Shown here piece by piece: positions 12,140 to 43,423 of a stretch of DNA of 43,423 nucleotides. The translations under genes and the position numbers were made by a program. The notes below the pieces were generated by a model that searched no databases, was not told the DNA's origin, and worked only from the letters and a program-made list of their open reading frames with translations. Source of the stretch: a virus; IMG/VR virus record IMGVR_UViG_3300007345_000079, positions 1-43,423 of that record, one strand, 5' to 3'. Position 1 is the stretch's first letter. Every line of letters begins with the position of its first letter.

Positions 12140-12370
12140 ATGCGTAACTGCCTGACCTGCAAGTGGCGGGGACCGGCACGGACTCCGCAGTGCTCCAAGG
12201 AACCGGAGCATTCGGCGACCTGTGAATACCCGCTCCCGACCATCACCATGATCGGCTTCAACGTGACGGACGTGCGCCGCCACATCAATCTGGCGACGAT
12301 GTTGCCGGACAGTCCCTATTACCATGAGGCGCACGCTGCACAGGAATGCGCCACATGGGTTGACGCATAG
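12140..12370 (+). CDS. Small Cys-rich protein
   Basis: 76 residues. CLTCKW at 4-9, then C18 and C28 give a four-Cys pattern suitable for zinc binding. Its stop lies within the spacer of the promoter of the next unit. Function unknown. Confidence 0.7.
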   Translation: MRNCLTCKWRGPARTPQCSKEPEHSATCEYPLPTITMIGFNVTDVRRHINLATMLPDSPYYHEAHAAQECATWVDA

Positions 12371-12388
12371 GACGAATCATCCTACGAC
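12360..12388 (+). promoter_or_regulatory. Repeated-family promoter for 12434 gene
   Basis: -35 TTGACG at 12360-12365, 17-base spacer ending GAATCATCC, -10 TACGAC at 12383-12388. It sits in the end of the previous gene. GACAGTCTCAC lies at 12386-12396. Confidence 0.65.
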
Positions 12389-12764: not shown

Positions 12765-13139
12765 ATGATGACCATGAACCAAGTGATCGCCGCCCTCAAG
12801 GAACTGGCACCGGAACGCCCGGTCGTGTTCAGCTTTGCTGACATCGCGCCGACGACCGTGGCCAGCTATCGCGGATATTATGACCAGCCAGCGCTGGGCT
12901 GGGAACCGACCGGATACGACGGCGACGCCCGCCCGCCGGAGGCTGAGGCACTGATCGAACAGCTTGAAGGTGCGATCGGCACGATCTTCACCGGCTGGAA
13001 GGGCGGGGACTATCGCTACAACGGCGACGAGACGCTATGGGTTGCGAACCCCGGCAGCAGCACCGGTAACTTCATCACGGGCCTCGACCTCAGCGGCTAT
13101 TTCGCCGTGCTGATCGTCGGCCGGGAGGAAGGATATTGA
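12765..13139 (+). CDS. Hypothetical protein
   Basis: 124 residues, behind GAGGAGA. Alpha/beta with an aromatic loop (SYRGYYDQPALGWEPTGYDG) and a C-terminal GDETLWVANPG segment. Similar small proteins of unknown function occur in phages. TTGA overlap to the next gene. Confidence 0.75.
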   Translation: MMTMNQVIAALKELAPERPVVFSFADIAPTTVASYRGYYDQPALGWEPTGYDGDARPPEAEALIEQLEGAIGTIFTGWKGGDYRYNGDETLWVANPGSSTGNFITGLDLSGYFAVLIVGREEGY

Positions 13140-13678
13140 GCGCCGACCAGATGCTGATCCTTGAGGCCGCTGCGTTCGCCGCCAGCCGCCATCACGGGCA
13201 GGTCCGCAAATGGACCGGTGAGCCTTACGTCACGCACACCTTGGAGGTCGCCTCCATCGTCGCGCAAGTGACCGACGACACCGACATGATCATCGCCGCG
13301 ATCCTGCACGACGTGGTGGAGGACACCAACACGCAAATCGGCGAGGTGTGGAACCGCTTCGGCTACGAGGTGGCGAACCATGTCCAATGGCTGACTGACG
13401 TGAGCAAGCCGTCGGACGGCAACCGGGCGATCCGCAAGGCGATGGACCGTGAGCATATCGCGAAGGCTCCGCCCCGGACGAAGACGATCAAGCTGGCCGA
13501 CCTGATCTCGAACTCCCGGTCGATCCTCGCGCTGGACGAAGGCTTCGCCCGCATCTACCTACCGGAGAAAATCCGGCTGCTCGGGGTGCTGATCGAGGGG
13601 AATGAATCCCTGTGGCAAGAGGCACACGAGATCGTCCAGCAGGGCCTCGCCAAGCTGGCGGAGAAGCGCGACGCATGA
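13136..13678 (+). CDS. Small HD-domain (p)ppGpp hydrolase-like protein
   Basis: 180 residues from TTG 13136, with GGAGGAAGG upstream. The sequence has the full motif series of the RelA/SpoT hydrolase HD domain and stand-alone small alarmone hydrolases (MESH1-like): R24 in VRKWTGEPYVTH, metal-ligand H34, the LHDVVEDT box with H58, D59, E62 and D63, and KLADLISN with D122 and N126. No synthetase or regulatory domain is present. Family knowledge predicts removal of the 3'-pyrophosphate of (p)ppGpp, which would blunt the host stringent response; other pyrophosphorylated nucleotides are possible substrates. Translationally coupled to both neighbours, whose functions are unknown. Confidence 0.85.
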   Translation: MSADQMLILEAAAFAASRHHGQVRKWTGEPYVTHTLEVASIVAQVTDDTDMIIAAILHDVVEDTNTQIGEVWNRFGYEVANHVQWLTDVSKPSDGNRAIRKAMDREHIAKAPPRTKTIKLADLISNSRSILALDEGFARIYLPEKIRLLGVLIEGNESLWQEAHEIVQQGLAKLAEKRDA

Positions 13679-19593: not shown

Positions 19594-19835
19594 TGGGATG
19601 CCCGACCGGCAAGGTAATGCACCGGGGAAAGCGGAGCGCTCATAAGGCGCTCCTCAACGTCCAGAGCAGGACCGGCCGGTTGGTGCCTTACTTCTGTCCC
19701 AAGTGCCGGCATTGGCATCTGGGGAACACGCCGCAGACCCGGTTGGAGCGGATGAACAATCTGTTCGACCGGGTCGCCCAGCTTGACGCTGCCCGGATGG
19801 TGGATGAATCGGTGAACGGTGTGAATCACCGTTGA
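19593..19835 (+). CDS. Small basic protein with zinc-ribbon-like motif
   Basis: 80 residues from ATG 19593. YFCPKCRHWHLGNT near residues 33-46 gives a CxxC and His pair that could bind zinc; C3 may be a further ligand. The N-terminal part is Lys/Arg/His rich. Nucleic-acid binding is possible. Its stop overlaps the next promoter's -35. Confidence 0.7.
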   Translation: MGCPTGKVMHRGKRSAHKALLNVQSRTGRLVPYFCPKCRHWHLGNTPQTRLERMNNLFDRVAQLDAARMVDESVNGVNHR

Positions 19836-19860
19836 CGTGGAGGAAGTATTGTCCTATTCC
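19832..19860 (+). promoter_or_regulatory. Repeated-family promoter for 19893 gene
   Basis: -35 TTGACG at 19832-19837, 17-base spacer ending ATTGTCC, -10 TATTCC at 19855-19860. The leader GATTCG ... GGAGACAGACA follows. Confidence 0.75.
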
Positions 19861-24700: not shown

Positions 24701-24910
24701 ATGACTCACAGCGAACGTGACAAGCTCGCGATCACCACTATCCTCCAGCAGATGGGAGACGCGACCTATCCCGACATTGCCCTGCGCGGCGGGGAGGGAC
24801 TGGCATCGCCCTTGATGGAGATGGTCTGCGCCGGCGAGGTGATCAAAGAACAGGACCCCAGCCGCCCGGTGTATCAGCAGACGCGGTATCGTCTCGCGAA
24901 TGTCGATTGA
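24701..24910 (+). CDS. Small winged-helix-like protein
   Basis: 69 residues behind AAAGGAAG. SERDKLAITTILQQMGDATYPDIALRGGEG ... LMEMVCAGEVIKEQ ... QTRYRLA resembles a winged helix in order of elements. Its promoter is not obvious; the terminator lies 55 bases upstream. Unrecognised beyond that. Confidence 0.7.
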   Translation: MTHSERDKLAITTILQQMGDATYPDIALRGGEGLASPLMEMVCAGEVIKEQDPSRPVYQQTRYRLANVD

Positions 24911-24935
24911 CGAAGAGGAACAATTGTCCTATTCC
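24907..24935 (+). promoter_or_regulatory. Repeated-family promoter for 24968 gene
   Basis: -35 TTGACG at 24907-24912 overlapping the previous stop, 17-base spacer ending ATTGTCC, -10 TATTCC at 24930-24935, leader ending GGAGACAGACA. Very close to the copy at 19832. Confidence 0.75.
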
Positions 24936-25667: not shown

Positions 25668-25696
25668 TTGACCGAATCGAACAACAAACCTACTTC
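25668..25696 (+). promoter_or_regulatory. Repeated-family promoter for 25728 gene
   Basis: -35 TTGACC at 25668-25673, spacer beginning GAATCG, 17 bases, -10 TACTTC at 25691-25696, leader with AATCGAAGGAGACAGAC. Confidence 0.75.
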
Positions 25697-26943: not shown

Positions 26944-27339
26944 TTGATCTACCACGGCAAGCCTCCCTTCCTCGAATGCTCAAGTGCCGGCGACCGTCGG
27001 TTCAGTGCATTCTACGCCCGTCTGAGGGGCAGGGAAGGGCAAACGATCGAGCAGCTATACCAAGGAGCCAAGGTCTTCTCCTGCGGCTCCACGGGCCTCT
27101 CCATCAAGGAGGCGAAGGGACTGCGCCCGGTCAACGGCCGGGAGGTGCGGGCGCTCTACGCCGCGCTGTGGGACGAGTATATCGCCGAGAACCCGGACCT
27201 GATACCGGTGCTTCTGGCGGCGACCGGGCTGGCCGATCGCTTCGGCCGGCGCGGCGGCGTCTGTCAGGCCACCGAGCTTTGGCGTATCCGCGACAGACAT
27301 TTACACATGACTGTTGACGAACCGGAAGAATCGTCCTAG
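26944..27339 (+). CDS. Remote NADAR-like protein (conserved phage protein)
   Basis: 131 residues from TTG 26944. The order of motifs resembles the NADAR/YbiA superfamily: RRFSAFYARLRG (19-30; compare FSNFYP), QTIEQLYQGAKVF (33-45; compare the EHYFQAMKF motif with its active-site Glu), an helical middle, NPDLIPVLLAATG (83-95; compare the LL-ATG motif) and ELWRI near the end (compare the D..WG motif). NADAR proteins act on ADP-ribose joined to guanine or on riboflavin intermediates. The similarity is my own reading and is distant, so the assignment is tentative. Sits beside the GIY-YIG insertion, and the next promoter's -10 overlaps its stop. Confidence 0.6.
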   Translation: MIYHGKPPFLECSSAGDRRFSAFYARLRGREGQTIEQLYQGAKVFSCGSTGLSIKEAKGLRPVNGREVRALYAALWDEYIAENPDLIPVLLAATGLADRFGRRGGVCQATELWRIRDRHLHMTVDEPEESS

Positions 27340-29612: not shown

Positions 29613-29641
29613 TTGACCGGGCAGTCGAATCATCCTAGATG
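29613..29641 (+). promoter_or_regulatory. Repeated-family promoter for 29675 gene
   Basis: -35 TTGACC at 29613-29618, spacer ending GAATCATCC (17), -10 TAGATG at 29636-29641. A partial second copy (GATTAAGTGG-TGAACGAATCGG) lies directly upstream, and GGAGACAGACACAG follows. Confidence 0.7.
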
Positions 29642-31931: not shown

Positions 31932-32276
31932 ATGTCCACCCGCCCGACCCTCAAGATGCTTTCTGGACATCAGCGAGCAGCGTCTTACCAATTCCCTGTA
32001 GGCTCCCACTGGCGGCACCAGTCGTCGGGCAAGGTCTACGAGGTGACCGGCCACGTTACGCTTGAGGCGAGCGGGGAGGCGGCGGTGTGCTATCGCCCGG
32101 CCGAATGTGATGACCTTGAACTCCTGACCTTCGGCGAGGCCCCGTCCTCCGAAGTGGTCTTCGCGCGTCCTGCGCATGAGTTCACCGAAGCCGTGAGCTA
32201 CCACGATGGCTCGGTCACCCGGCTGGGGCCGCGCTTCGTGCCTGTCATCCGCCAGACCCGGTGGGTCAGCCCGTGA
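31932..32276 (+). CDS. Hypothetical protein
   Basis: 114 residues from ATG 31932, chosen for GGAG at 8 bases; ATG 31920 lies too near the promoter. Beta-rich with a VGSHWRHQSSGKVYEVTGHV segment, in the style of small barrel proteins. GTGA overlap with the next gene. Confidence 0.7.
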   Translation: MSTRPTLKMLSGHQRAASYQFPVGSHWRHQSSGKVYEVTGHVTLEASGEAAVCYRPAECDDLELLTFGEAPSSEVVFARPAHEFTEAVSYHDGSVTRLGPRFVPVIRQTRWVSP

Positions 32277-32410
32277 TCGCGTCCAAGACGATCGCTGCGC
32301 TGGCCGGCGTTACCGGCACACCGCCGCCACTTCCTGATCCCGGCTCGTTCCTCATCCTTGCGACAGCCTGTGCTTTGTTCGGTGAGACTCTGATCCGATG
32401 GTTCCAATAA
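32273..32410 (+). CDS. Very short hydrophobic protein
   Basis: A 45-residue frame from GTG 32273 (GTGA overlap) with one hydrophobic stretch (SFLILATACALFGE) after a Pro-rich loop. It overlaps the SLOG gene by 13 bases. Real expression is not certain. Confidence 0.5.
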   Translation: MIASKTIAALAGVTGTPPPLPDPGSFLILATACALFGETLIRWFQ

Positions 32411-32868
32411 CGAGTAATCTGCCCGGCGTTCTGTGCGTCGAAGTGAGTGAACTGGAGCCAGACCCGAACGCCTTATACCGCTGCTGCTTCACCGGCGGCC
32501 GGGATTTCACCGACAAGGATTGGGTCTGGCGCAACCTCTACGAACTGAACGGCTATGCCGAGGTAGGGGCGATCGCCGAGATCGGAATCGGCTGCGCCAC
32601 CGGCGTGGATGCCTTGGTGCTGGAATGGGCGATCGCCAAGAACGTGGCGTGGACTCGCTACGTCGCCGATTGGGATCGGTTCGGCACCGCCGCCGGCTCC
32701 ATCCGCAACACCGCCATGCTGGAGGACTTCCAGCCGGACTATCTGGGAGTGTTTCCCGGTGGCGTGGGCACGACCCACTGCGCACGAACAGCACGCAAGC
32801 TGGGGATCGAACGCGTGTTCCTTACCCCTGAGATCGATCCCTTCGAAGAGGCTTCCAAATGGGGATGA
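32398..32868 (+). CDS. YspA-type SLOG-family protein
   Basis: 156 residues. FTGGRDFTDKDWVW at 31-44, IGIGCATGVDALVLEWA at 63-79, ADW ... AAGSIRNTAML at 90-107 and LGVFPGGVGTTHCARTA at 116-132 reproduce the YspA (DUF2493-like) branch of the SLOG superfamily, Rossmann-like domains that bind nucleotide-derived ligands. SLOG proteins are predicted sensors or processors of NAD+-, ADP-ribose- or cyclic-nucleotide-type signals in conflict systems; the phage role is unknown. The glycine-rich phosphate loop and the RN pair are intact. Confidence 0.8.
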   Translation: MVPITSNLPGVLCVEVSELEPDPNALYRCCFTGGRDFTDKDWVWRNLYELNGYAEVGAIAEIGIGCATGVDALVLEWAIAKNVAWTRYVADWDRFGTAAGSIRNTAMLEDFQPDYLGVFPGGVGTTHCARTARKLGIERVFLTPEIDPFEEASKWG

Positions 32869-33107
32869 GAAACCAAGCGACCGTCAAGGTCATGTTCCCG
32901 GACGGCCTCCGCGAGGTCCCGGCCTACATGCAGCTTTTCGATCACGGCAACCCCTTCCGCTGCCGGGGTGGCCTGACGCCGGAGGACATGAGCGGATGGG
33001 AATTCCACCGCATCATCGGCCGGGATTACGAGTGGGTGGCGCACGAATGCCGTCGCCCTGCCGACCCTGAACCCTTTCTTTTCGCCGTCGCGGCGGGCTG
33101 GGAATAA
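32859..33107 (+). CDS. Hypothetical protein
   Basis: 82 residues from ATG 32859, overlapping the SLOG gene by 10 bases. Beta-rich; the centre (FRCRGGLTPEDMSGWEFHRII) is conserved-looking. Located between the SLOG and AAA+ genes. Unrecognised. Confidence 0.7.
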   Translation: MGMRNQATVKVMFPDGLREVPAYMQLFDHGNPFRCRGGLTPEDMSGWEFHRIIGRDYEWVAHECRRPADPEPFLFAVAAGWE

Positions 33108-33108
33108 C

Positions 33109-34329
33109 ATGAGCATCCGCAAGTCCATCACGCATCAACTCAAGCACAACAGCGCCCTCCACGGCGCGATCCTGTCCGGTGGCGCGGCGCTCATCACCAA
33201 GCTCTACGAGGCATATCAGGAGCGGCAGGTGCTTCGGGTCCGGTTCAATTCGGACATGCCTGACTATGCCGCCATCACGCGCTACATCACCGATCATCTG
33301 CTCGACACCGAGCGGAGCCGGTCCTTCACCTATTCGGCGGACAGCCGCTGGCGGGACGGCGAGGAAACCACCGAGAACCAGACGCTGGCGATCGGCTACG
33401 GCAACCACGCCGGGCGCTTCCGTGGCACCCTGATCGAAGTGGAGCGATCCCTCGACGAGAGCAACCGGGCGGGGACGTTCAAGGAAACGCTGGTCGTGAC
33501 CTTCATCACTCGCGACAAGGCCGTCGTCCGGGATTTCATCGACGAACTGGTCAAGATCACCAGCGCCGGGTCGGCCGTGTTCAAGCACGTCCCAATCTAC
33601 ACCAACACTTCGTCCTATTGGGATCGCACCGGCAAGCTGCCCCTGCGTTCGATCGAGAGCGTGTTCACGGCGGACGACGCCGGGCAGCATGTGGTGGACG
33701 CCGTCCGCGCCTTCGAGGCCAAGAAGGATGAGCATCACCGCCTCGGCCTGCCCCATCACATCGGCATCCTCCTGCATGGCGAACCGGGCTGTGGTAAGTC
33801 GAGCCTGATCCATGCCGTCGCCTCCGAACTCCAGCGGTCGATCTATTATCTCAATCTGGGGTCGGTCACCGACGACTCCTGCCTCACGAGCCTGCTGGCC
33901 GGGACGCGTGATTGGTCGAAGGCGCTACTGGTGCTGGAGGACATCGACGCAACCGGCGTGATGGTCAACAGGGCCGAGGGAGGCGCTGAGAAGGGCAAGA
34001 AGAAGAAAGACAAGGCGAAGGAGCAGGACGCGGCGGTAACCGCCTCCAGCAGCCCTGTGAGCCTGTCTGTGCTGTTGAACTCGCTGGACGGCATCCTGTG
34101 CCCGGACGGTCTCGTCGTCATCGCCACCACCAACCACCTCGACCGGCTGGACCCGGCCCTGCGCCGCCCCGGCCGCTTCGATCACCTGATCGAGCTTGGC
34201 AAGCTGGGCTATGACGATTTCGTCCGCATGGCCCGCCTGTTCGGCAAGGACCCTAACCAGTTCCTCGTCGCAAATGACGTGGAGATGACCGGGGCACAGA
34301 TGCGCGCGATCCTGCTGGATGTCGCATAG
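33109..34329 (+). CDS. BCS1-like AAA+ ATPase
   Basis: 406 residues. Residues 16-32 are weakly hydrophobic and could bind a membrane, as in BCS1 proteins; a beta-rich domain follows (35-180). The AAA+ core has Walker A GEPGCGKS (224-231), Walker B ALLVLEDID (272-280), sensor 1 ATTNH (339-343) and arginine fingers in LRRPGRFD (351-358). A Lys/Glu-rich loop (about 291-310, EKGKKKKDKAKEQ) interrupts the core between Walker B and sensor 1. BCS1-like AAA+ proteins remodel or move folded proteins; phage homologues have no known role. Directly after the SLOG and an unknown gene, before an exonuclease. Confidence 0.88.
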   Translation: MSIRKSITHQLKHNSALHGAILSGGAALITKLYEAYQERQVLRVRFNSDMPDYAAITRYITDHLLDTERSRSFTYSADSRWRDGEETTENQTLAIGYGNHAGRFRGTLIEVERSLDESNRAGTFKETLVVTFITRDKAVVRDFIDELVKITSAGSAVFKHVPIYTNTSSYWDRTGKLPLRSIESVFTADDAGQHVVDAVRAFEAKKDEHHRLGLPHHIGILLHGEPGCGKSSLIHAVASELQRSIYYLNLGSVTDDSCLTSLLAGTRDWSKALLVLEDIDATGVMVNRAEGGAEKGKKKKDKAKEQDAAVTASSSPVSLSVLLNSLDGILCPDGLVVIATTNHLDRLDPALRRPGRFDHLIELGKLGYDDFVRMARLFGKDPNQFLVANDVEMTGAQMRAILLDVA

Positions 34330-34555
34330 CCCCGTCGTCCGGGACGAATATGGACTCCGTGTGGTCCGCTTGTCCCCGCTCCGCACCCGGCGGCTCCTCC
34401 AGATGGCTGAGCACCCCGGTTTTCACCACAAGGCATTCTACAGCCAATACTGCCGCCTCATAGAAGAGGGCTGGGTAGGGTGGGTGATTGGGATGGCTTA
34501 CCTCAAACCCGACGGCCAGCAGCATCTGGCCGCCATGCTACAGGAAGGAATCTAA
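34319..34555 (+). CDS. Hypothetical protein
   Basis: 78 residues from ATG 34319, overlapping the ATPase by 11 bases. Helical (LRTRRLLQMAEHPGFHHKAFYSQYCRLIEEGWVGWV), resembling a short winged-helix-like element ending in a YLKPDGQQHLAAM helix. Unrecognised. Stop overlaps the next start (TAATG). Confidence 0.65.
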   Translation: MSHSPVVRDEYGLRVVRLSPLRTRRLLQMAEHPGFHHKAFYSQYCRLIEEGWVGWVIGMAYLKPDGQQHLAAMLQEGI

Positions 34556-35163
34556 TGGCGAAGAACGCGATGGTCGATCTGGAGACGTGGGACCTGATCC
34601 CCGGTTCCGATCTCCGCAGCATCGGCGCGGTCATCTTCGACATCGAGACGGGCGAGTTCATCGACGAGTTCTATGTCGCGATCAAGACGCCTTGGTATCT
34701 CATAAAGCGGTGGTGGTGGCCGTTCGGCAAGCTGACCCGCTCTGCTGACACCATCAAGTGGTGGTCGCAGCAGTCGGAGGAAGCACAGAACGCTTTCACC
34801 AACCCGGTTAGCATAGGCGAAGCGCTGGGGATGCTGGATGACTGGTGGCGCAAGCACGAGAGCTTCGACTACACCCGCTTCTGGGCGCACGGGCCTCACT
34901 TCGACGAGCAGCTTCTGGCCGCCGCCTACCGCCTCGTGAAAGCGGAGAAGCAGTGGGGCAAGTCCTACCTCAAGGCACCATGGCTCTACCGGGCACCGCG
35001 CGACCTGCGGACCTTTCTCGAAGCGGCCGGTATGGACCCCAAGACGGGCATCCCCAGCTTCGGCACCGCCCACAACGCCCTCGACGACGCCAAGGCTCAG
35101 GCGCTGGCCGTGGTCGAAGCTCGCCGCCGCCTGACAGCGCCCCGGCTGGCAGAAGCCGCGTGA
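34555..35163 (+). CDS. DEDDh 3'-5' exonuclease (DnaQ/DexA-like)
   Basis: 202 residues. AMVDLETWD has D8 and E10; FWAHGPHFDEQLLAAAY has D117; FGTAHNALDDAKAQA has H173 and D178. This is the DEDDh set of proofreading-type and T4 DexA-like exonucleases. A large insert rich in Trp (PWYLIKRWWWPFGKL) is like that in the phage DexA/ExoVIII-type group. It would trim DNA 3' ends in recombination, repair or host-DNA breakdown. Last enzyme of the accessory region. Confidence 0.88.
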   Translation: MAKNAMVDLETWDLIPGSDLRSIGAVIFDIETGEFIDEFYVAIKTPWYLIKRWWWPFGKLTRSADTIKWWSQQSEEAQNAFTNPVSIGEALGMLDDWWRKHESFDYTRFWAHGPHFDEQLLAAAYRLVKAEKQWGKSYLKAPWLYRAPRDLRTFLEAAGMDPKTGIPSFGTAHNALDDAKAQALAVVEARRRLTAPRLAEAA

Positions 35164-35399
35164 GCGCCAAGATGACCCGCATCCTCCTCCCCGGTCTGCC
35201 GTCCGGGGAGGGCTATCTGGATTGGGACGAGCGCTCGATCGAGGATATGGTCTCCATCATGCGCCGCCGGGCGGCCCACTACCGGATGGTGGCTGACGCC
35301 ATCGACCGGGCGGCCGACGAGGACTTCAAGATCGACATCGTCCGGGGATCGATCGTCCAGCACCACATCCGCAACCTCCAGCCGGGACGCGACGCATGA
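35160..35399 (+). CDS. Short hypothetical protein
   Basis: 79 residues from GTG 35160 (GTGA overlap with the exonuclease). Helical centre (DERSIEDMVSIMRRRAAHYRMVADAIDRAADED). Unrecognised. Confidence 0.7.
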   Translation: MSAKMTRILLPGLPSGEGYLDWDERSIEDMVSIMRRRAAHYRMVADAIDRAADEDFKIDIVRGSIVQHHIRNLQPGRDA

Positions 35400-35689
35400 G
35401 CTTCGAATTGCTCTCACCCGGCCCGCTAGGTGCCATCCTCCACGTCAACCGCCAGTTCATCGCCATGAACGCCAAGGACGGAGGCAACCGCCCCGTCTAC
35501 ACCCTCAAGCCCAACGGCCCGAACTCGACACCGATCTATGCCCGCGAGGTCTCCGTCGATGGTCCCTCGCGCTGCGTGTTCAGCGCCGACCGGCTCGCCT
35601 GCGGTGCCCATGCTTGGATTGCTATCCCGCCCGGCACCACCCTCGGCCTTCACGATCCGATGACCTTCGAGGAGGCCAAGGCCGCCTGA
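35396..35689 (+). CDS. Hypothetical protein
   Basis: 97 residues, beta-rich and Pro-containing (FSADRLACGAHAWIAIPPGTTLGLHDPMTF). Last gene before a terminator and attP; the first inverted pair of arm-like repeats starts at its stop codon. Unrecognised. Confidence 0.7.
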   Translation: MSFELLSPGPLGAILHVNRQFIAMNAKDGGNRPVYTLKPNGPNSTPIYAREVSVDGPSRCVFSADRLACGAHAWIAIPPGTTLGLHDPMTFEEAKAA

Positions 35690-35705
35690 CCTACCGCTGA
35701 CCTAC
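35686..35705 (-). repeat. Arm-type-like repeat pair 1 (inverted)
   Basis: CTGACCTAC at 35686-35694 and 35697-35705, start to start 11 bases. It is the complement of the GTAGGTCAG units on the other side of the terminator. Confidence 0.7.
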
Positions 35706-35719
35706 CGTTGTCTCCACCT

Positions 35720-35756
35720 CACCCGTCGTCCGAAAGGCCGGCGGGTGTTTTGTTTT
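35720..35756 (+). terminator. Rho-independent terminator
   Basis: Stem CACCCGTCG (35720-35728) with CGGCGGGTG (35739-35747), including one G-U pair in RNA, extended inside by CC-GAAA-GG, then TTTTGTTTT. Closes the long plus-strand accessory region. Confidence 0.8.
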
Positions 35757-35831
35757 GTGATTCGCGAGCCGCTGAATTTCCCCCATAAGACCCATCTTGA
35801 CCCATGGCGTAACACCGTGAGCCAAGGAAAA

Positions 35832-35852
35832 GTAGGTCAGAAAGTAGGTCAG
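35832..35852 (+). repeat. Arm-type-like repeat pair 2
   Basis: GTAGGTCAG at 35832-35840 and 35844-35852, spacing 12, on the left side of the attP core. Confidence 0.7.
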
Positions 35853-35867
35853 CGCCAAGAAACGAAA

Positions 35868-35891
35868 AGCCCCGCCGGTTAGGGCGGGGCT
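35868..35891 (-). terminator. Minus-strand terminator carried with the tRNA 3' end
   Basis: Perfect 9-bp stem AGCCCCGCC (35868-35876) with GGCGGGGCT (35883-35891), followed on the minus strand by a TTTT run. It lies about 30 bases downstream of the tRNA-derived CCA and in the same direction, so it probably is a copy of the host tRNA gene's own terminator. Confidence 0.75.
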
Positions 35892-35919
35892 ATAAACCCT
35901 TGATTTACAAGGGAGAAAA

Positions 35920-35965
35920 TGGTGGACGCACTAGGGTTCGAACCTAGGACCCGCTGATTAAGAGT
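35920..35965 (-). other. attP: attP core: 3' half of tRNA-Lys(CUU)
   Basis: Read on the minus strand, 35965 to 35920 gives the anticodon loop CTCTTAA, the 3' anticodon strand TCAGC, the variable loop, a TPsiC arm with GGTTCGAACC, the acceptor strand and CCACCA. This matches tRNA-Lys with anticodon CUU from the loop to the 3' end. The 5' half is absent and the bases before the loop do not pair with TCAGC, so it is not a complete tRNA gene. This is the usual form of an attP whose recombination restores the host tRNA gene. Confidence 0.88.
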
Positions 35966-36094
35966 GACAAACTCCTGTTACACGACGAGACGCGCCGAGA
36001 CAAGCTGTCTCAAGAAAACCCCGGAAATCCGCCATTTTTGGTCCTTTCTTAGTAACAACGTGGGACATCCTGTTTCATCCAGAAACGACAAAAA

Positions 36095-36114
36095 GTAGGT
36101 CAGGAGTAGGTCAG
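36095..36114 (+). repeat. Arm-type-like repeat pair 3
   Basis: GTAGGTCAG at 36095-36103 and 36106-36114, spacing 11, to the right of the attP core and upstream of int. Confidence 0.7.
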
Positions 36115-36136
36115 CCCTCTTGCGGCGGCGCTCCGG

Positions 36137-36156
36137 GTAGGTCAGAAGTAGGTCAG
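36137..36156 (+). repeat. Arm-type-like repeat pair 4
   Basis: GTAGGTCAG at 36137-36145 and 36148-36156, spacing 11, ending 31 bases before the integrase start; occupation here could repress int. Confidence 0.7.
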
Positions 36157-36187
36157 AAACTCGATCTGCAAACAGGAAGATTTGTCC

Positions 36188-37543
36188 ATGAAGAAACAGC
36201 TTACGGCGGCCTTCGTCAAGGGCCTCAAGCCCGGTCCGAAGAAACAGGTGATCACTGATTCTGTGGCGGCCAACCTCCGCCTGATCGTCCACCCGACCGG
36301 GCGAAAGATTTGGGCATGGCAAGGCAAGGTGAACGGTGAGCCGAAGACGGTGACGCTGGGTCAGTGGTTGGAGACCGGAGGCATGGACCTGTCCGCCGCC
36401 CGCGAGCGAGCGACCGAGATCAACACCGCCAAGGTCGAGGGAAGAGCGGTGAGCTTCCTAACGCCCAGCGAGGAGTCATCCGAGCCGGCGATCGACCCGC
36501 GCGCCTCCCTCACCTGCGACTGGATGTTCGATCAATATATGGCGGCCGAGGGCGAGACGAGGAAGACGGCCAAGGAGAAGCGGACCACCTACAACCGGGA
36601 GATCAAACCGACGCTGGGTGAGCGGCAGATCGACACCATCACCTACGACGATCTGGCGGCGATCGTGCAGAAGAAGTTTGCGGAAGGGAAGGGGCCGGCG
36701 TCGAACCGGCTCAAGGCGCTCATCGCCCGCTGGTGGAAGTGGGGCGTCTCGCGCGGCCGGGCCGTGACCGGTCTGACCGTCAACCCGGCGATCGATCTGG
36801 TGAGCCTCGCCGACGAGAACAAGCGTCGTCGCTACCTCACGAATTACGAGATCGGGGTGTTCTTCAAAGGAACCTATTTGGCTCGTGACACCTTCGCTGA
36901 GATGATGACCGTCATCCTCTACACCGGCCTGCGACGGAGCGAGGCGGCCGGTCTGACATGGGACGAGGTCCGCTTCCACGACAACACGATTCTGATCAGC
37001 GGTGAGCGGATCAAGAACGGGTTGGACCTGCTGCTGTGGATGCCGGACACGGTGGTCGCGATCCTGCGCCAACGCAAGCGCCTCACCGGCAATTACAAAT
37101 ACGTCTGGCCGGCCCCGTTCTCGTGGAGGCAGGGCGAGACGGTCGATGAAGACGAGGACACGTCGAAGGAGCTAATCAGCTTCACGAAGCCCATGAACGC
37201 GCTCAACGAGACCTGCCAGAAGCTGGCGGCGAAGGAGCGGAAGACCATGGAGCGGTTCACCGTCCACGATCTGCGTCGCACGCTGGCGACGGGTATGCGG
37301 GGATTGAGGGATGCCGAGGACAAGCCTCTCATCCTGTCGGACATCGTCGAGCGGGTCATCAACCACATCATCGGCGGCGTCCGGGGCAACTACGATCACC
37401 ACGACTATTTCGCGGAGAAGAAGGCGGCGCTCCGCATTTGGGCGGAGCACCTTGATCCGATCAGGCTGACCGCTCACGCAGCCATTGAGAAAGCTCACTC
37501 CGCAGCCAGCGGGTCGCCTGCACGTTCACTGGCTGAGGCATGA
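36188..37543 (+). CDS. int: Tyrosine integrase
   Basis: 451 residues from ATG 36188, with ACAGGAAG upstream; TTG 36182 is a poorer alternative. Layout of P4-type phage integrases: N-terminal arm-binding domain (about 1-95, with the RLIVHPTGRKIWAW strand), core-binding domain (about 108-200) and catalytic domain with R249 (ILYTGLRRSE), K276, H360 and R363 (VHDLRRT), H393 (INHIIGG) and nucleophile Y402 (RGNYDHHDY). All catalytic residues are present. It should recombine attP at 35920-35965 with a host tRNA-Lys gene. The 3' end overlaps the opposing excisionase gene by 83 bases. Confidence 0.95.
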   Translation: MKKQLTAAFVKGLKPGPKKQVITDSVAANLRLIVHPTGRKIWAWQGKVNGEPKTVTLGQWLETGGMDLSAARERATEINTAKVEGRAVSFLTPSEESSEPAIDPRASLTCDWMFDQYMAAEGETRKTAKEKRTTYNREIKPTLGERQIDTITYDDLAAIVQKKFAEGKGPASNRLKALIARWWKWGVSRGRAVTGLTVNPAIDLVSLADENKRRRYLTNYEIGVFFKGTYLARDTFAEMMTVILYTGLRRSEAAGLTWDEVRFHDNTILISGERIKNGLDLLLWMPDTVVAILRQRKRLTGNYKYVWPAPFSWRQGETVDEDEDTSKELISFTKPMNALNETCQKLAAKERKTMERFTVHDLRRTLATGMRGLRDAEDKPLILSDIVERVINHIIGGVRGNYDHHDYFAEKKAALRIWAEHLDPIRLTAHAAIEKAHSAASGSPARSLAEA

Positions 37544-37781
37544 ACTTTCCGTCGCGCCGCCAGCGGTAAAGCGTCTGCCGGCTGATCTTGAGCTTGGCGC
37601 AGATTTCCGCGATCGTAATGATTTCGTCGGGATCAGCATCACGCGCCGGGGTGATAGTGCCGAGGAGAGTGGCCATGCTGAGGAGGCCATTCAATTCGGC
37701 ATCATCAAGGGTGATACCGAGGCCGCTGGCTTTAGCGGCCTCGATCTTCGCACACAGGGAGGTCATGTCGGTCATGCTCAT
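37461..37781 (-). CDS. xis: AlpA/MerR-type excisionase-like protein
   Basis: 106 residues on the minus strand. The C-terminal half (about 50-103, DEIITIAEICAKLKISRQTLYRWRRDGKFMPQPVNVQATRWLRSEL) is a winged helix-turn-helix of the AlpA/excisionase group, which bends attachment-site DNA and favours excision. The first 45 residues are extra and helical. In-frame ATGs lie at 37781, 37775 and 37766; no strong ribosome site separates them. Convergent with and overlapping int, so transcripts are antisense to each other's 3' ends. Confidence 0.8.
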   Translation of the reverse strand: MSMTDMTSLCAKIEAAKASGLGITLDDAELNGLLSMATLLGTITPARDADPDEIITIAEICAKLKISRQTLYRWRRDGKFMPQPVNVQATRWLRSELSQWLRERSA

Positions 37782-37861
37782 GGTCTGCCCAGAATGACCA
37801 TCACTGTCAATTCATAATAGCTCTTGGTCGATCATCACGCGCCATCACGTCATTTTCCGTC

Positions 37862-37890
37862 TTGACCCATCGGACAAATCTTCCTATTCG
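37862..37890 (+). promoter_or_regulatory. Repeated-family promoter for 37926 gene
   Basis: -35 TTGACC at 37862-37867, spacer ending AATCTTCC (17), -10 TATTCG at 37885-37890, leader CATCAACAACGACTCG and AAGGAGACAGACCG. Confidence 0.75.
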
Positions 37891-37925
37891 CTTCTCATCA
37901 ACAACGACTCGAAGGAGACAGACCG

Positions 37926-38315
37926 ATGGCTTTCAAGATCACCAAGACCGACAACGCCCGCGTGATGAAGCTGGCCGGCGAACTCGACGATATGCGAACC
38001 GAGATCAACGACAAGCTCGACGAATGGCGGGGCGAACTGAGCGGCCTGCTCGACGCCCTCAACGAGAAGCGTGAGGAACTGCGTGGCGTGATCGAGGACA
38101 TCCAAGCCGAACAGCAGAGCGCCTATGACGACATGTCGGAGCGCTGGCTCGAAGGCGACCGCGCCTCGCCCACCGAAGACTGGATCGGCGCGCTTGCGGA
38201 TGCGGAGGCATTGGTCTCCGACGACTTCACGTTCGAACTGCCTGACGAAATGGAATTCGACGACGAGTTCGAAACCCTCAAGGACGAGGGTCTGCCCACC
38301 GAGCCGGAATATTGA
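37926..38315 (+). CDS. Acidic coiled-coil protein
   Basis: 129 residues. A coiled coil at about 8-75 (NARVMKLAGELDDMRTEINDKL ... EKREELRGVIEDI) followed by an acidic tail (FELPDEMEFDDEFETL) that could mimic nucleic acid or bind a basic partner. Single-gene unit behind a family promoter. Function unknown. Confidence 0.8.
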   Translation: MAFKITKTDNARVMKLAGELDDMRTEINDKLDEWRGELSGLLDALNEKREELRGVIEDIQAEQQSAYDDMSERWLEGDRASPTEDWIGALADAEALVSDDFTFELPDEMEFDDEFETLKDEGLPTEPEY

Positions 38316-38332
38316 AACGGCAAAATGGCGGT

Positions 38333-38361
38333 TGACGAACCGGAAGAATCGTCCTAATTCG
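38333..38361 (+). promoter_or_regulatory. Repeated-family promoter for 38397 gene
   Basis: -35 TTGACG at 38333-38338, spacer ending GAATCGTCC (17), -10 TAATTC at 38356-38361, leader CATCAACAACGAATCG and AAGGAGACAGACC. Nearly the consensus of the family; 24 of the first 24 bases match the copy at 27314 except in the -10. Confidence 0.8.
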
Positions 38362-38396
38362 ACCCCATCAACAACGAATCGAAGGAGACAGACCCT

Positions 38397-38747
38397 ATGG
38401 CTCAGAAGCTCATCCTTGATGACCAGATGGAGGTGCTGCGGCAGAACGGGGCGGTCGCCTCGCGCTCCGGCGACGGCAGCGATCTTCGTCCCGTGCTCAA
38501 GCTCTTCACCCCGGACGGCGCGGCGACGTGGCTTATCTCCGAGATCGATGCCGACGGCGACACGCTGTTCGGTCTGTGCGATCTGGGCCTCGGAGAACCA
38601 GAGCTTGGTTACGTCTCGCTGACCGAGATCAAGTCGATCCGGGGCGGGCTGGGTCTCCCGGTCGAACGGGACATCTCGTTCACCCCGACGATGACCATGG
38701 CCGAATATACCACCAAGGCTCGCCGGGCCGGCCGGATCGTTCTTTGA
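38397..38747 (+). CDS. DUF2958-family protein
   Basis: 116 residues. VLKLFTPDGAATWLISEIDADGDTLFGLCDLGLGEPELGYVSLTEIKSIRGGLGLPVERDISFTP gives the DUF2958 pattern (a KLFTPDG start, GLEPELGY-type centre, RGxLGLPVERD end). DUF2958 proteins are common on plasmids, integrative elements and phages; their function is not known. TTGA overlap with the next gene. Confidence 0.85.
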   Translation: MAQKLILDDQMEVLRQNGAVASRSGDGSDLRPVLKLFTPDGAATWLISEIDADGDTLFGLCDLGLGEPELGYVSLTEIKSIRGGLGLPVERDISFTPTMTMAEYTTKARRAGRIVL

Positions 38748-39148
38748 CCGGGCCGCCGGCCACGGTCCTCCTGACCTTGAAGGAATCCGAAGCCTTGCTC
38801 TGGGGCTTCGCCATGATGGGGGACTATGCTCACGAGCCGCCGGACGATGAGACTGATCCGGTCTATCTCCTGCTCAAGGCAGGGTATAGGCCGGAGCAGT
38901 TCGAGGCCGCCTGCAAGCGCCTCCGTCCGATGGCACTCGACGATTATCTGCGTGAGCCGTTCTCGGACCTCGAAAAGATGATCTTGCGGTTGGCGGTGGA
39001 GAACACATCGTGGATCACCACCTACCGCACCCACGCCCCAACCCGTGACTCGCCCATGCTGATCCGTGAAGCATTGACCGCGTTGCGAACCCTCGCCGCC
39101 AAGCTCGAAGACTTCGGCATCGAAGTCAACTACATCCCCAACGATTGA
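38744..39148 (+). CDS. Hypothetical protein
   Basis: 134 residues from TTG 38744. Helical, acidic, two or three helical bundles (ESEALLWGFAMMGDY ... YRPEQFEAACKRLRPMALDDYL). Unrecognised. It lies between the DUF2958 gene and the NAD+ pathway. Confidence 0.7.
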   Translation: MTGPPATVLLTLKESEALLWGFAMMGDYAHEPPDDETDPVYLLLKAGYRPEQFEAACKRLRPMALDDYLREPFSDLEKMILRLAVENTSWITTYRTHAPTRDSPMLIREALTALRTLAAKLEDFGIEVNYIPND

Positions 39149-39159
39149 AAAGGAGCCAC

Positions 39160-40260
39160 ATGTTCGACATCTGTGTATTCGCTGGCCGTATGCGTCCGCC
39201 GACGGCCGCTCATCTGGCCAACATCCGCGCCGGCCTCGCCGCTTCCCAATATGTCTTCGTCATCATCGGCTCGACCGGTGAAGCCCCGCACTTCAAGAAC
39301 CCCTTCACGTTCGACGAAGTCCAGACCATGATCCGTGGCTCGCTGTCGGCGGCCGAGAATGATCGCGTCTTCGTCCACGGCGTCCGCGACCGCGACAATG
39401 ACCTTGCGTGGGTCCGCGACGTGCAGAAGATCGTCCACGAACAGGCGACCGCGCTGTCGATCCCCGGCGAGCCGCGTATCGCTCTGGTAGGCTGCAACAA
39501 GGACGGCTCGTCCTATTACCTCAAGCTCTTCCGCCAGTGGGGAAGCATCGGTGTCGAGCCGATCCTGAACGACGGCGAATCGATGTCGGCGACCGCCATG
39601 CGTATGGCGCTCTACGAAGCCGAGGACCCCGGCCGCGTCCTCAAGACGTGGAAGGACCTGTTCGGCGCTTCCTATCTCCCGCACGGCACCTTCTGGTTCC
39701 TGCGCCAGTGGGTGAACACCGAGCACTTCCAGCAGATGCGGGCCGAGGCGCTGTTCATGCGGGACGAACTCAAGAAGTTCCAGCCGAACCCCTACACCGG
39801 CCAGCCGCAGCAGCACAATTGCGCCGACTTCTATCTACAGCACGGCGGCGCTGTCCTGCTGGTCAAGCGCGATCGGATGCCCGGCGAAGGGCTGTGGGCG
39901 GTGCCCGGCGGGCACAAGCACGCCTACCAGACGTTCCGCGACGCAGCGCTCGCTGAGCTTGGTCAGGAAACCAGCATCTTCGACCTGAACGAAGCCATCA
40001 CGCCCGACGTGATCAACAGCTACATCCGGGGCGACAAGCTGCTCGACAATCCGTGGCGGTCGAACCGCGAAGTGACCGTCTCGGTAGCTTACGGCGCGCT
40101 GCTGCCCGGCAGCTTCACCCGGCCGCTGATCGAAGGCGCTGACGACGCCCGCGAAGCCCGCTGGTGGAACATCGACGAGATCACCCGTGACATGATGTTC
40201 GAAGACCACTTCAACATCATCGAGGATTTCTCGAACCGCTTCCGCGATCTGACGATCTAA
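39160..40260 (+). CDS. nadM: Bifunctional NMN adenylyltransferase / Nudix protein
   Basis: 366 residues from ATG 39160 behind AAAGGAG. N-terminal nucleotidyltransferase domain (1-185): AGRMRPPTAAHLANI holds the T15-x-x-H18 form of the (H/T)xGH motif, and SMSATAMRMAL with R148 is the ISxxxxR motif; together they predict NMN + ATP to NAD+ + PPi. C-terminal Nudix domain (about 222-355): AVLLVKRD ... LWAVPGGHKHAYQTFRDAALAELGQETSIF. In the Nudix box the usual REUxEExGU reads AELGQETSI, with Arg and one Glu replaced, so ADP-ribose hydrolysis may be weak or lost. The fusion follows the bacterial NMNAT-Nudix type. With the next gene it forms a two-step nicotinamide-to-NAD+ pathway. Confidence 0.88.
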   Translation: MFDICVFAGRMRPPTAAHLANIRAGLAASQYVFVIIGSTGEAPHFKNPFTFDEVQTMIRGSLSAAENDRVFVHGVRDRDNDLAWVRDVQKIVHEQATALSIPGEPRIALVGCNKDGSSYYLKLFRQWGSIGVEPILNDGESMSATAMRMALYEAEDPGRVLKTWKDLFGASYLPHGTFWFLRQWVNTEHFQQMRAEALFMRDELKKFQPNPYTGQPQQHNCADFYLQHGGAVLLVKRDRMPGEGLWAVPGGHKHAYQTFRDAALAELGQETSIFDLNEAITPDVINSYIRGDKLLDNPWRSNREVTVSVAYGALLPGSFTRPLIEGADDAREARWWNIDEITRDMMFEDHFNIIEDFSNRFRDLTI

Positions 40261-40272
40261 TCAGGAGACCCC

Positions 40273-41739
40273 ATGAGCTATATCACGACCATCGGGGAAC
40301 TGCTGAACCAGCCGATCCTCAACAGCGACACCTACAAGAACAGCCACTGGACGTTCGAGCACCCGCAGTTCACTTCGAGCTACGGCTACATCGAAGCCCG
40401 TAAGGGTGGCGAGTTCAGCGAGGTCATGTTCTTCGGCCTGCAATACCTGCTGCGCTATTACCTGACCCAGCGCGTCACCGACTCGGTGATCGCCCACGCC
40501 CGCCGCTTCCTCCCGCTGCACGGCGTGCCGTTCAACGAAGAAATGTGGACGACCATCCGCGACAAGCACGATGGCCGGTGGCCGGTGCGGATCAAGGCGC
40601 TTCCAGAGGGCGTCCTCGTCCCGCAGGGCTGTGTCCTTGTCACGGTGGAATCGCTCGACGAGGAATGCGCCGGTGTCGCCGCGTTCGTCGAAACCCTGCT
40701 GCTTCGCGGCGTCTGGCTCCCCACCACGATCGCCACCCGGTCGATGCGCTGGTGGCGTCTGGTCGATCGCTACCTCACCCAGAGCGGCACGCCGGAGACG
40801 GCGGAGTTCAAGGTGGTGGACTTCTCGGCGCGCGGCGTCCGGTCGTCCGAGGACGCAGGCATCTCCGGCATGGCCCATCTCCTGAACTTTCAGGTGACCG
40901 ACAATCTGCTTGGCATCCTGTTCGGCCAGAACGCCTACACGACCGAAACCATGCTGGGATATTCGATCCCGGCGACCGAGCACTCGGTCACCACGTCGTG
41001 GGGCAAGGAAAACGAGCAGGCGTTCTTCGAGCACATTCTCGAAGTCCATGGCCAGACCGTGAACCCGCTGGGCGGCCGGTCGCCGGTGTCGGTGGTGATC
41101 GACACCTACGATCAGGACAACGCCGTCCGCATGTGGCTGACGCCGGCCGAGAAGGGCGGTTGCGGCCTCCGCGAGAAGCTGGAAGCGTCGAACATGTGCG
41201 TCGTGCTGCGGCCGGACTCGGGTGATCCGATCATCAACGTCGTCCACCTGCTCGACCTGATCGGAAGCCTGACGGGCTGGACGGTCAACGAGAAGGGCTT
41301 CCGCGTCCTCCCGGATTTCGTTCGCGTCATTCAGGGCGACGGCATCCACGAAGAATCGCTGCGCCGCATCCTCCAGCGTGTGGTCTACCACACTTGGTCG
41401 ATCGACAACCTGACCTTCGGTTCGGGCGGTGGTCTGATGATGCACGACGTGGAGCGCGACACCCACCGCTTCGCCATGAAGACCTCGGAAGTGGTCATCG
41501 GCGGTATCACCAGCGCCGTCCGCAAGGAGGTCAAGACCGATCCGTCCAAGGCATCCAAGGCCGGGCGCTTCGCAGTGGTGATGGAGAACGACGTGCTGAT
41601 CACCATCCCGGAAGACGAACTCAACGGTCGTCTCAACTATCTGCGGACGGTCTACGAGGACGGCGAACTGGTCGCCCCTGAGACGTTCGATCAGGTCCGG
41701 GAGCGCGCTCGCCAGTGGCGCGTCATCGGGCACGGCTAA
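40273..41739 (+). CDS. nadV: Nicotinamide phosphoribosyltransferase
   Basis: 488 residues, full length for the NadV/NAMPT family, which makes NMN from nicotinamide and PRPP. Recognisable sites by comparison with human NAMPT: the RGV segment FSARGVRSSEDAG with R187, the nicotinamide-selecting D210 (NFQVTD), catalytic H237 (PATEHS), RPDSGDP at 313-319, IQGDG at 353-357 and GSGGGL at 383-388. AGGAGACCCC precedes ATG. It lies 12 bases after the NMN adenylyltransferase gene and before a strong terminator, so the pair is one unit. Known phage pairs of this kind rebuild NAD+ after host defence systems deplete it. Confidence 0.95.
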   Translation: MSYITTIGELLNQPILNSDTYKNSHWTFEHPQFTSSYGYIEARKGGEFSEVMFFGLQYLLRYYLTQRVTDSVIAHARRFLPLHGVPFNEEMWTTIRDKHDGRWPVRIKALPEGVLVPQGCVLVTVESLDEECAGVAAFVETLLLRGVWLPTTIATRSMRWWRLVDRYLTQSGTPETAEFKVVDFSARGVRSSEDAGISGMAHLLNFQVTDNLLGILFGQNAYTTETMLGYSIPATEHSVTTSWGKENEQAFFEHILEVHGQTVNPLGGRSPVSVVIDTYDQDNAVRMWLTPAEKGGCGLREKLEASNMCVVLRPDSGDPIINVVHLLDLIGSLTGWTVNEKGFRVLPDFVRVIQGDGIHEESLRRILQRVVYHTWSIDNLTFGSGGGLMMHDVERDTHRFAMKTSEVVIGGITSAVRKEVKTDPSKASKAGRFAVVMENDVLITIPEDELNGRLNYLRTVYEDGELVAPETFDQVRERARQWRVIGHG

Positions 41740-41745
41740 TGGAAG

Positions 41746-41771
41746 GGCCGCCCTCCGGGGCGGCCTTTTTT
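41746..41771 (+). terminator. Rho-independent terminator
   Basis: Perfect 8-bp stem GGCCGCCC (41746-41753) with GGGCGGCC (41758-41765), TCCG loop, then six T. Closes the NAD+ salvage unit. Confidence 0.92.
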
Positions 41772-41784
41772 ATGGAATAAGTGA

Positions 41785-41813
41785 TTGACTGAATATCTTG
41801 CTTCCCGTAAATG
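41785..41813 (+). promoter_or_regulatory. Repeated-family promoter for 41843 gene
   Basis: -35 TTGACT at 41785-41790 in the context GAATAAGTGA, spacer beginning GAAT (17), -10 TAAATG at 41808-41813. Confidence 0.7.
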
Positions 41814-41842
41814 CTATGGCTCAACCGGAGAAGGAGACAGCC

Positions 41843-42709
41843 TTGAATTTCATCGACCGCATCTGTGAAGACGAACCCCTCGCGCGCGAACTGTTCGAGG
41901 GCGTCAGGGTCGTCACGGTGCATGACGATGTCTATCAGGCGGCTGTCGAACTGATGGAACGCGACGCGACCAAGATCGCCGGCATCGCCAAGTTCACCTG
42001 CTGGCCGGACTATAACACATGGATCGAAATCCCAGCGCCCAAGGGGCAGCACACGATGGGGTTCTTGTTCTATGGCGGCCTCACGAAGAAAGAGCAGAGC
42101 GTCACGGCAGGCCATGGGCTGGTGTTCATCGGCTTCCCTGATGGTGAGATCATGGCCATCCCTGTTCGCTACGATCTGGAGAGCTACAGCCTCGTATGGG
42201 CAGATCATCACCAGCTTGCCGCCCGCGCCGCCAAGGCCAACAACGCCAGCCCGGCTGTCCTGTCCCTGCTTGCGATCCACCAGCGGGCGACGACTGATCC
42301 CATCCTGATCCACTCGCAATATGCGGGCGTGCTCGATCACGCCAAGCCGCTGATGTTCTCGCTGCTGGCGTTCATCAATTCACCGAAGCTCGTCCGCATC
42401 CGGGAATGCGACAAGGCGCGGCTGAACGCCCGCCGACTCAAGCGTGGGAAATATCCCTTCCATCCGCATCACGAGGTGCGGCTCAACATCGACAAGCACA
42501 TCCTGAGCATCACACAGGGGCAGGGGGACGGCCCTGAGCGCGAACTGCACTTCGTCCGGGCGCATCTGCGCTTCCTCGTCCACCCACGCTACAAGAACGT
42601 CTCCGTGACGCTGGTGCAGCCCCACTACCGGGGCAACCCGGAACTTGGCATCTTGAACACCAGCTATGCGATCGACCGGACGAACTCCCGGTGGAAGGAT
42701 GCGGAGTAA
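41843..42709 (+). CDS. Conserved hypothetical phage protein
   Basis: 288 residues from TTG 41843, chosen because GAAGGAGACAGCC precedes it; the in-frame ATG 41816 lies at or before the predicted transcription start. Alpha/beta N-terminal two thirds. The C-terminal part (RARRLKRGKYPFHPHHEVRL-like, then ELHFVRAHLRFLVHPRYKNVSVTLVQPHYRGNPELG) has a HFVRAHxR ... PHYRG pattern that I recall from unannotated proteins of proteobacterial phages. Function unknown. Single-gene unit. Confidence 0.8.
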   Translation: MNFIDRICEDEPLARELFEGVRVVTVHDDVYQAAVELMERDATKIAGIAKFTCWPDYNTWIEIPAPKGQHTMGFLFYGGLTKKEQSVTAGHGLVFIGFPDGEIMAIPVRYDLESYSLVWADHHQLAARAAKANNASPAVLSLLAIHQRATTDPILIHSQYAGVLDHAKPLMFSLLAFINSPKLVRIRECDKARLNARRLKRGKYPFHPHHEVRLNIDKHILSITQGQGDGPERELHFVRAHLRFLVHPRYKNVSVTLVQPHYRGNPELGILNTSYAIDRTNSRWKDAE

Positions 42710-42716
42710 GTGAGGG

Positions 42717-42739
42717 ACGAGTCCGCTGCGCGGACTCGT
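42717..42739 (+). terminator. Hairpin without U-tract
   Basis: Perfect 10-bp stem (42717-42726 with 42730-42739) and a TGC loop just after the stop codon, followed by GGAGAAAG rather than T. It may slow polymerase or protect the RNA end. Confidence 0.5.
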
Positions 42740-42750
42740 GGAGAAAGTGC

Positions 42751-42779
42751 TTGACCAATTCGCCGGGCTGAACTATCTG
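42751..42779 (+). promoter_or_regulatory. Repeated-family promoter for 42812 gene
   Basis: -35 TTGACC at 42751-42756 in the context GAAAGTGC, 17-base spacer, -10 TATCTG at 42774-42779, leader GCAACAGCGAATCAGGAG. Confidence 0.7.
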
Positions 42780-42811
42780 AGTCGCAGCAACAGCGAATCA
42801 GGAGACAGACG

Positions 42812-43423
42812 ATGTGCGGAACTTGTGGAAACCTTGCTCACGACGATCTCGACGATGACATCGGCGACATCTTCGGCACGGGCCAGATGAGCACCGAGGA
42901 CGCCGCACGCGCTGCTGAGTTCGCCAAGGCTGTCTCGGACAACACCCGCCCGGCCGCCGGCCCGGTTCTCTATTGGGACACCTGTGGCTCGTGCCGTGGG
43001 TCGGGCAACTTCATCACCTATTCCGGCCGCGTCGGTGGGGCCTGCTTCAAGTGCAAGGGCAAGGGACAGGTTCCCTTCAAGACCTCACCGGAGAAGCGGG
43101 CGGCTGATGCCGAGCGCAAGCGCAAGAACCTCGCCACCAAGCTCGAAGCCTTCGTCACCGCCCACGCGGACGAATGGGCATGGATCGCGACGGAGGCTCC
43201 CAAGTTCGACTTCGCCAAGAGCATGTTCGACAAGCTGCTCAAGGATGGTGAACTGACGCCCGGCCAGTTGGCAGCGGTGCAGAAGCTCATCGCCCGCGAA
43301 CAGGCCCGCACTGAGGCGGAGGCCGCCCAGAAGGAAGCCGCGCCGGTGATCGAGGAAGCATCACTCGCCAAGATCGAGGAGGCATTCGCCGCTGCGATCG
43401 CCCGCGACATCGCGCGTCCCAAG
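42812..43423 (+). CDS. DnaJ-type zinc-finger protein, partial at window edge
   Basis: An open frame from ATG 42812 to the end of the window, 204 codons without a stop. A Cys-rich start (MCGTCGNL) and acidic stretch precede a pair of CxxCxGxG motifs, CGSCRGSG at about 58-65 and CFKCKGKG at about 78-85, a DnaJ-like zinc site without a J domain. A helical Ala/Lys/Glu-rich part follows. GGAGACAGACG stands before the ATG. Related in motif to the gene at 24968. The C-terminus and any catalytic domain lie outside the window. Confidence 0.8.
   Translation, partial: MCGTCGNLAHDDLDDDIGDIFGTGQMSTEDAARAAEFAKAVSDNTRPAAGPVLYWDTCGSCRGSGNFITYSGRVGGACFKCKGKGQVPFKTSPEKRAADAERKRKNLATKLEAFVTAHADEWAWIATEAPKFDFAKSMFDKLLKDGELTPGQLAAVQKLIAREQARTEAEAAQKEAAPVIEEASLAKIEEAFAAAIARDIARPK

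Follow-up and report, generated by a model that had tools for sequence, protein, structure and literature searches.

A predicted nicotinamide-to-NAD+ gene pair with a clade-specific Nudix variant in a sphingomonad-type phage

Our analysis suggests that two adjacent genes of a sphingomonad-type phage, encoding NadM-Nudix and NadV, form a working NAD+ salvage pair within a single expression unit, that the Nudix half of NadM is probably weak in hydrolysis or has lost it, and that the upkeep of NAD+ is the likely benefit to the phage; we consider this reading, taken as a whole, to be probable. Phage salvage by NadV and NadM, with a proposed role against NAD+-depleting defences, is already published. 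What is new, as read from the protein sequence, is a variant form of NadM's Nudix half that is shared by a small clade.

Results

The window, by which we mean the whole stretch of DNA that was analysed, is a viral record 43,423 bases long and a fragment of a phage genome of about 150 kb; over positions 32273-43423 it matches a 151-kb contig (L002) at 99.98% identity. The nearest named phages are Sphingobium phage Lacusarx, set by its authors beside the PhiCbK-like phages (PMC5648845), and the Erythrobacter phages XM05 and vB_EliS-L02 (L02), the latter of which has been described as a Cbk-like siphovirus (PMC9127768). The gene for the terminase large subunit (PF17289; 502-2265, minus strand) confirms a tailed-phage genome, and an HD-domain protein (PF13328), which may be a nucleotide hydrolase, is encoded at 13136-13678. 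When NadV and the altered NadM clade were used to scan the bacterial genomes of GTDB, no relatives turned up at the sensitivity used. The pair itself consists of two intact open reading frames separated by 12 nt:

39160-40260, plus strand: NadM-Nudix, 366 aa from ATG, NMN adenylyltransferase fused to a Nudix domain with an altered box
40273-41739, plus strand: NadV, nicotinamide phosphoribosyltransferase by family models and motifs, 488 aa

Both starts are preceded by ribosome-binding-site-like sequences (AAAGGAG for NadM, CAGGAG for NadV). The preliminary description had placed an NMN adenylyltransferase-Nudix gene next to nadV, which protein families, the intact frames and the short gap confirm, and the predicted route from nicotinamide to NAD+ that it drew from the two genes finds good support in families, motifs, fold and the conservation of the pairing. 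As a reading of the locus, it was right about the two enzymes and their route and overlooked the clade-specific alteration of the Nudix catalytic signature described below. NARP2 is composed of phage enzymes that lead from nicotinamide to NAD+, and on this general description the window's adjacent genes, with their 12-nt gap, are of the NARP2 type. An adjacent NadM-NadV pair is common to XM05, Lacusarx, L02 and Mesorhizobium phage Cp1R7A-A1 and occurs in many phages overall, so that it is not a chance reading. A broken pathway was considered and rejected, the reading frames being intact in both the window and L002.

NadV scored 453 bits over its full length against the family model NF006629 (cut-off 405), matched PHROG 448, nicotinamide phosphoribosyltransferase, at 9e-129, and lay above the cut-offs of both Pfam NAPRTase and NAMPT_N. 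Its motifs DFSARG, FQVTD, PATEHS, RPDSGDP, IQGDGI and FGSGGGL align with solved NAMPTs, and the active-site elements (the histidine of EHS, RPDSG, QGDG and the aspartate of FxxTD) are all present and invariant in the clade. The nearest solved relatives being NAMPTs, the substrate suggested is nicotinamide rather than nicotinate. A search for a PRPP synthetase in these phages found none, and PRPP must therefore be supplied by the host.

The best NCBIfam model for NadM is the bifunctional NMN adenylyltransferase/Nudix model NF003786 (2e-67), and the assignment to the NadM-Nudix family is clear, though the score of 228 bits is below the curated 397-bit cut-off. NadM also matches PHROG 395 (4e-54) and Pfam NUDIX (PF00293; 3e-10, 40.5 bits, cut-off 21.1). 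Its predicted model (pLDDT 92.8) has an intact fold, with 2r5w and 2qjo as the best PDB matches; both the Pfam hit and these whole-length matches place a C-terminal Nudix fold behind the adenylyltransferase half. The bacterial NadM-Nudix enzymes of Synechocystis (2qjo) and Francisella (2qjt, 2r5w) share this two-domain fold at a TM of 0.80-0.85 over the whole length and are related in sequence at 1e-30 to 7e-35; their Nudix boxes are kept (RELKEE, RELFEE), whereas that of the window is not.

Residues were compared across 168 distinct phage NadM-Nudix proteins, a sample to which each large homologue scan contributed no more than its 80 best relatives; one of the three scans searched by the canonical Nudix motif pattern and two did not. 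The adenylyltransferase half of the window's NadM contains both signature motifs of its domain:

39184-39213, plus strand: GRMRPPTAAH, nucleotidyltransferase (T/H)xxH motif; R10 and H18 in 168 of 168 listed homologues
39586-39603, plus strand: SATAMR, second nucleotidyltransferase motif (SxTxxR); R148 in 168 and T145 in 153 of 168 listed homologues

The first of these reads TAAH where HxGH is usual, with a threonine at the first position in 11 of the 168 listed proteins. We considered the change from HAGH to TAAH as a loss of the adenylyltransferase and rejected it, TxxH recurring in other phages that mostly have canonical Nudix boxes. Because of this recurrence, and because R10, H18 and R148 are present throughout the listed proteins, a loss of NAD+ synthesis does not appear to be indicated; the change could also lower that synthesis. 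A second NadM variant, with GPQH for HxGH, a replaced glycine in the preceding GR and a canonical Nudix box, was seen in L003 (6925-7986), L008 (6912-7985) and L019 (4001-5041).

Two motifs of the Nudix half are altered:

39907-39978, plus strand: altered Nudix box GGHKHAYQTFRDAALAELGQETSI, canonical form GX5EX7REUXEEXGU
40057-40077, plus strand: RSNREVT, replacing an RSxRGRT-type motif; Val305 in the window, L004 and L005

The RExxEE core of the box has become AELGQE, and we class the protein as a variant rather than as a standard bifunctional enzyme. Position 269, the first glutamate of EE, is Glu in 165 of the 168 listed phage homologues; the window, L004 and L005 alone have Gln there. The same three proteins have lost Arg265, which is present in 164 and replaced by Lys in one further protein, and position 305 is Arg in 137 and Val in just these three. 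All 168 proteins, that of the window included, have E266 and E270. The L004 and L005 proteins, 63% and 57% identical to the window's NadM, come from other metagenomes, and the recurrence of the same altered motifs in them makes a sequencing error unlikely. The three proteins form one clade in a tree built without the motif columns (SH-aLRT 99); since their closest relatives have canonical boxes, the simplest history is a single change on the branch that the three share. Scans by DNA pattern for more members of the clade gave the same three contigs only, five other matches being due to chance. Between the window and L004, dN is about 0.28 and dS about 0.96 in the Nudix half (0.34 and 0.89 in the NMN adenylyltransferase half), which argues that the Nudix half is under purifying selection and not decaying. 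Together, these observations point to an ADP-ribose/NAD hydrolase half that may have been weakened or re-used.

Two phages of the altered clade also encode, at another place in the genome, a separate Nudix protein that has N-terminal cysteine pairs and whose Nudix box is intact (L102, 855-1376, minus strand, on the G001 contig; L103, 673-1197, plus strand, on the G003 contig). Compensation by such a second gene shows no clear correlation with the altered box, because Lacusarx and the L003 phage also have a second Nudix gene, and within the altered clade the L002 and L004 phages have one and the L005 contig has none.

The pair is probably the distal part of a longer transcription unit:

38332-38360, plus strand: promoter-like element with TTGACG, a conserved spacer containing GGAAnnATnnTCC and a -10-like TAATTC; includes an exact copy of TTGACNNNNNGGAANNATNNTCCTA
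38384-38393, plus strand: GGAGACAGAC leader, just 5' of the ATG at 38397, recurring behind the same promoter type
38397-38747, plus strand: DUF2958 protein, first gene of the unit (PF11171, 6e-39)
38744-39148, plus strand: orfX, about 134 aa, start codon uncertain, ending 11 nt before NadM
41746-41771, plus strand: intrinsic terminator GGCCGCC-CTCCGG-GGCGGCC-TTTTTT, with a 7-bp G+C stem core, a 6-nt loop and T6

TTGACNNNNNGGAANNATNNTCCTA has eight matches in the window with up to three mismatches, compared with 0.15 expected:

12360-12384, 19832-19856, 24907-24931, 25668-25692: copies of TTGACNNNNNGGAANNATNNTCCTA
27314-27338, 29613-29637, 37862-37886, 38332-38356: further copies of TTGACNNNNNGGAANNATNNTCCTA

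The element carries a conserved dyad in its spacer and is often followed downstream by GGAGACAGAC (17 matches with up to one mismatch, 3.6 expected) and then a start codon; these repeats may define a phage regulon. Similar promoter-like copies lie 5' of the unit in most relatives examined. A DUF2958 gene lies 5' of the pair in most related loci that reach far enough, those of Lacusarx, L02, XM05, L015 and L017 among them, and an orfX homologue (40-52% identical) directly precedes NadM wherever a related locus extends to this point. orfX has no Pfam match and belongs to no known family; it is a possible functional partner of the pair. We infer that DUF2958, orfX, NadM and NadV form one transcription unit ended by the hairpin at 41746-41771. 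A strong terminator had previously been proposed to close the pair, and this is borne out by the G+C hairpin with its T6 run and by the folding of the stretch 41733-41785 (-26.1 kcal/mol, z -3.3). A simple terminator scan missed the hairpin, probably because its stem extends through G-T and A-T pairs into the T-run.

The pair had also been placed beside an integration module. This is literally true, a tyrosine recombinase with an arm-binding domain being encoded upstream of the unit (36188-37543, plus strand), but the true context is the conserved phage unit. An AlpA/HTH_17-like gene (37461-37781, minus strand) is convergent with the recombinase gene and overlaps its end; XM05 and L02 have just one other, smaller tyrosine recombinase, elsewhere in the genome. 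In other members of the group the pair has no recombinase next to it, and Lacusarx, with two recombinases, was nevertheless virulent in a lysogeny test (PMC5648845). The neighbouring integrase thus does not show lysogeny and says little about the pair. Further upstream, the window encodes a YspA/cpYpsA-related SLOG-family protein (PF10686; 32398-32868), of a family linked to nucleotide-derived ligands, and an AAA ATPase with a BCS1-like N-terminal domain (33109-34329) that is conserved in the XM05, L02 and L004 loci.

Discussion

In the mechanism that we propose, NadV would convert nicotinamide and PRPP to NMN, and the adenylyltransferase half of NadM would join NMN and ATP into NAD+, as families, motifs and fold indicate for both. 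To judge from the DNA sequence, the two enzymes would be expressed from one phage unit that runs from the clade-specific promoter near 38332 to the terminator at 41746-41771. The fixed changes in the Nudix box and the nearby motif would probably leave the ADP-ribose/NAD pyrophosphatase weak or absent, with the domain kept for structure or ligand binding. Hydrolysis may persist, since E266 and E270 are retained and since one known Nudix enzyme is active although its Glu/Arg pair is substituted (GX5YX7KEUXEE; PMC3655063). The likely benefit would be that NAD+ is kept up or restored during infection, including under depletion by host defences, as reported for other phages.

Comparable systems place the variant among close relatives. 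In Lacusarx, L02 and XM05 the pair has the same gene order, with orfX and DUF2958 upstream, and NadV is 64-67% and NadM 50-55% identical to the window's proteins; their Nudix boxes are canonical (RELIEE, REFIEE and RELVEE), in contrast to AELGQE. Vibrio phage KVP40 encodes homologous enzymes, NatV (34.5% identical to the window's NadM) and NadV, which were reported to be sufficient for functional salvage (PMC7139368, citing Lee 2017). Unlike in the window, natV has no nadV within 3 kb and its Nudix box is canonical (RELQEE); a scan with the single KVP40 NatV sequence reached only two near copies. The likeness to NARP2 lies in the phage-encoded rebuilding of NAD+ from other metabolites after depletion (PMC12300627, PMC11984713). 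The window's pair, whose function is predicted, differs in its altered Nudix half.

NARP1 and NARP2 are reported to counter NAD+ depletion (PMC11984713, PMC12300627), and phage NadV and NadM have been proposed to counter NADase effectors (PMC9503650). By analogy, a counter-defence role for the window's pair is plausible. It is quite possible that the pair instead raises NAD+ for DNA replication and metabolism with no role against defences. This is how the authors of L02 read their pair (PMC9127768), and NadV is widespread in large phages: 22% of medium-sized phages carry it, as do 33% of jumbo phages (PMC9503650). On the other side, related pathways rebuild NAD+ and defeat defences that deplete it (PMC11984713, PMC12300627). 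One role does not exclude the other.

The other alternatives concern NadM itself. The Nudix half could still be an active ADP-ribose/NAD pyrophosphatase, or one with a shifted substrate, making the pair an ordinary bifunctional one despite the changed box. The presence of E266 and E270 in all 168 listed proteins, the tolerated replacement of the Glu/Arg pair in an active Nudix enzyme (PMC3655063) and the continued purifying selection on the domain all speak for this; we nevertheless consider it rather unlikely, E269 (165 of 168 listed) and R265 (164 of 168) being near-invariant elsewhere and the third motif having changed from RSxRGRT to RSNREVT in the same three phages. A conserved, altered box under selection would also suit a domain that senses ADP-ribose or NAD+ without hydrolysing it and adjusts the adenylyltransferase half. 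Sensor Nudix folds with an altered box exist in NrtR, an ADP-ribose sensor (PMC9503650) whose Nudix domain (3gz8) is among the nearest folds, and in the NUDT9H domain of TRPM2, which binds ADP-ribose without hydrolysis (PMC4974056). These offer a parallel in principle, being fused to a DNA-binding domain and an ion channel, respectively, whereas the window's Nudix domain is fused to an NMN adenylyltransferase. The change to RSNREVT would fit a loss of ligand binding just as well, and we regard a sensor as unlikely; we are just as doubtful that the clade converted its NadM from pyrophosphatase to sensor, which would make an NAD+-rebuilding enzyme responsive to the products of host NADases. That NadM is degenerating, with both halves impaired, only NadV of consequence and a host enzyme taking NMN to NAD+, appears very improbable. 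Both signature motifs do depart from their commonest form, but TxxH recurs in 11 of the 168 listed homologues, mostly with an intact Nudix box, R10, H18 and R148 are present in all 168, dN/dS indicates constraint on both halves and the fold is predicted to be intact.

We therefore retain the reading of a working salvage pair whose Nudix half is probably impaired in hydrolysis. According to one proposal, the fused Nudix domain regulates NAD+ through cleavage (PMC9503650), and the altered clade beside relatives with an intact half provides a ready-made comparison between hydrolysis on the one hand and NAD+ supply and escape from defences on the other. The shared promoter-like element gives a handle on the regulation of the unit in this phage group. 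If the Nudix half has indeed lost its activity, these phages may possess an NAD+ maker that lacks the usual ADP-ribose/NAD breakdown activity.
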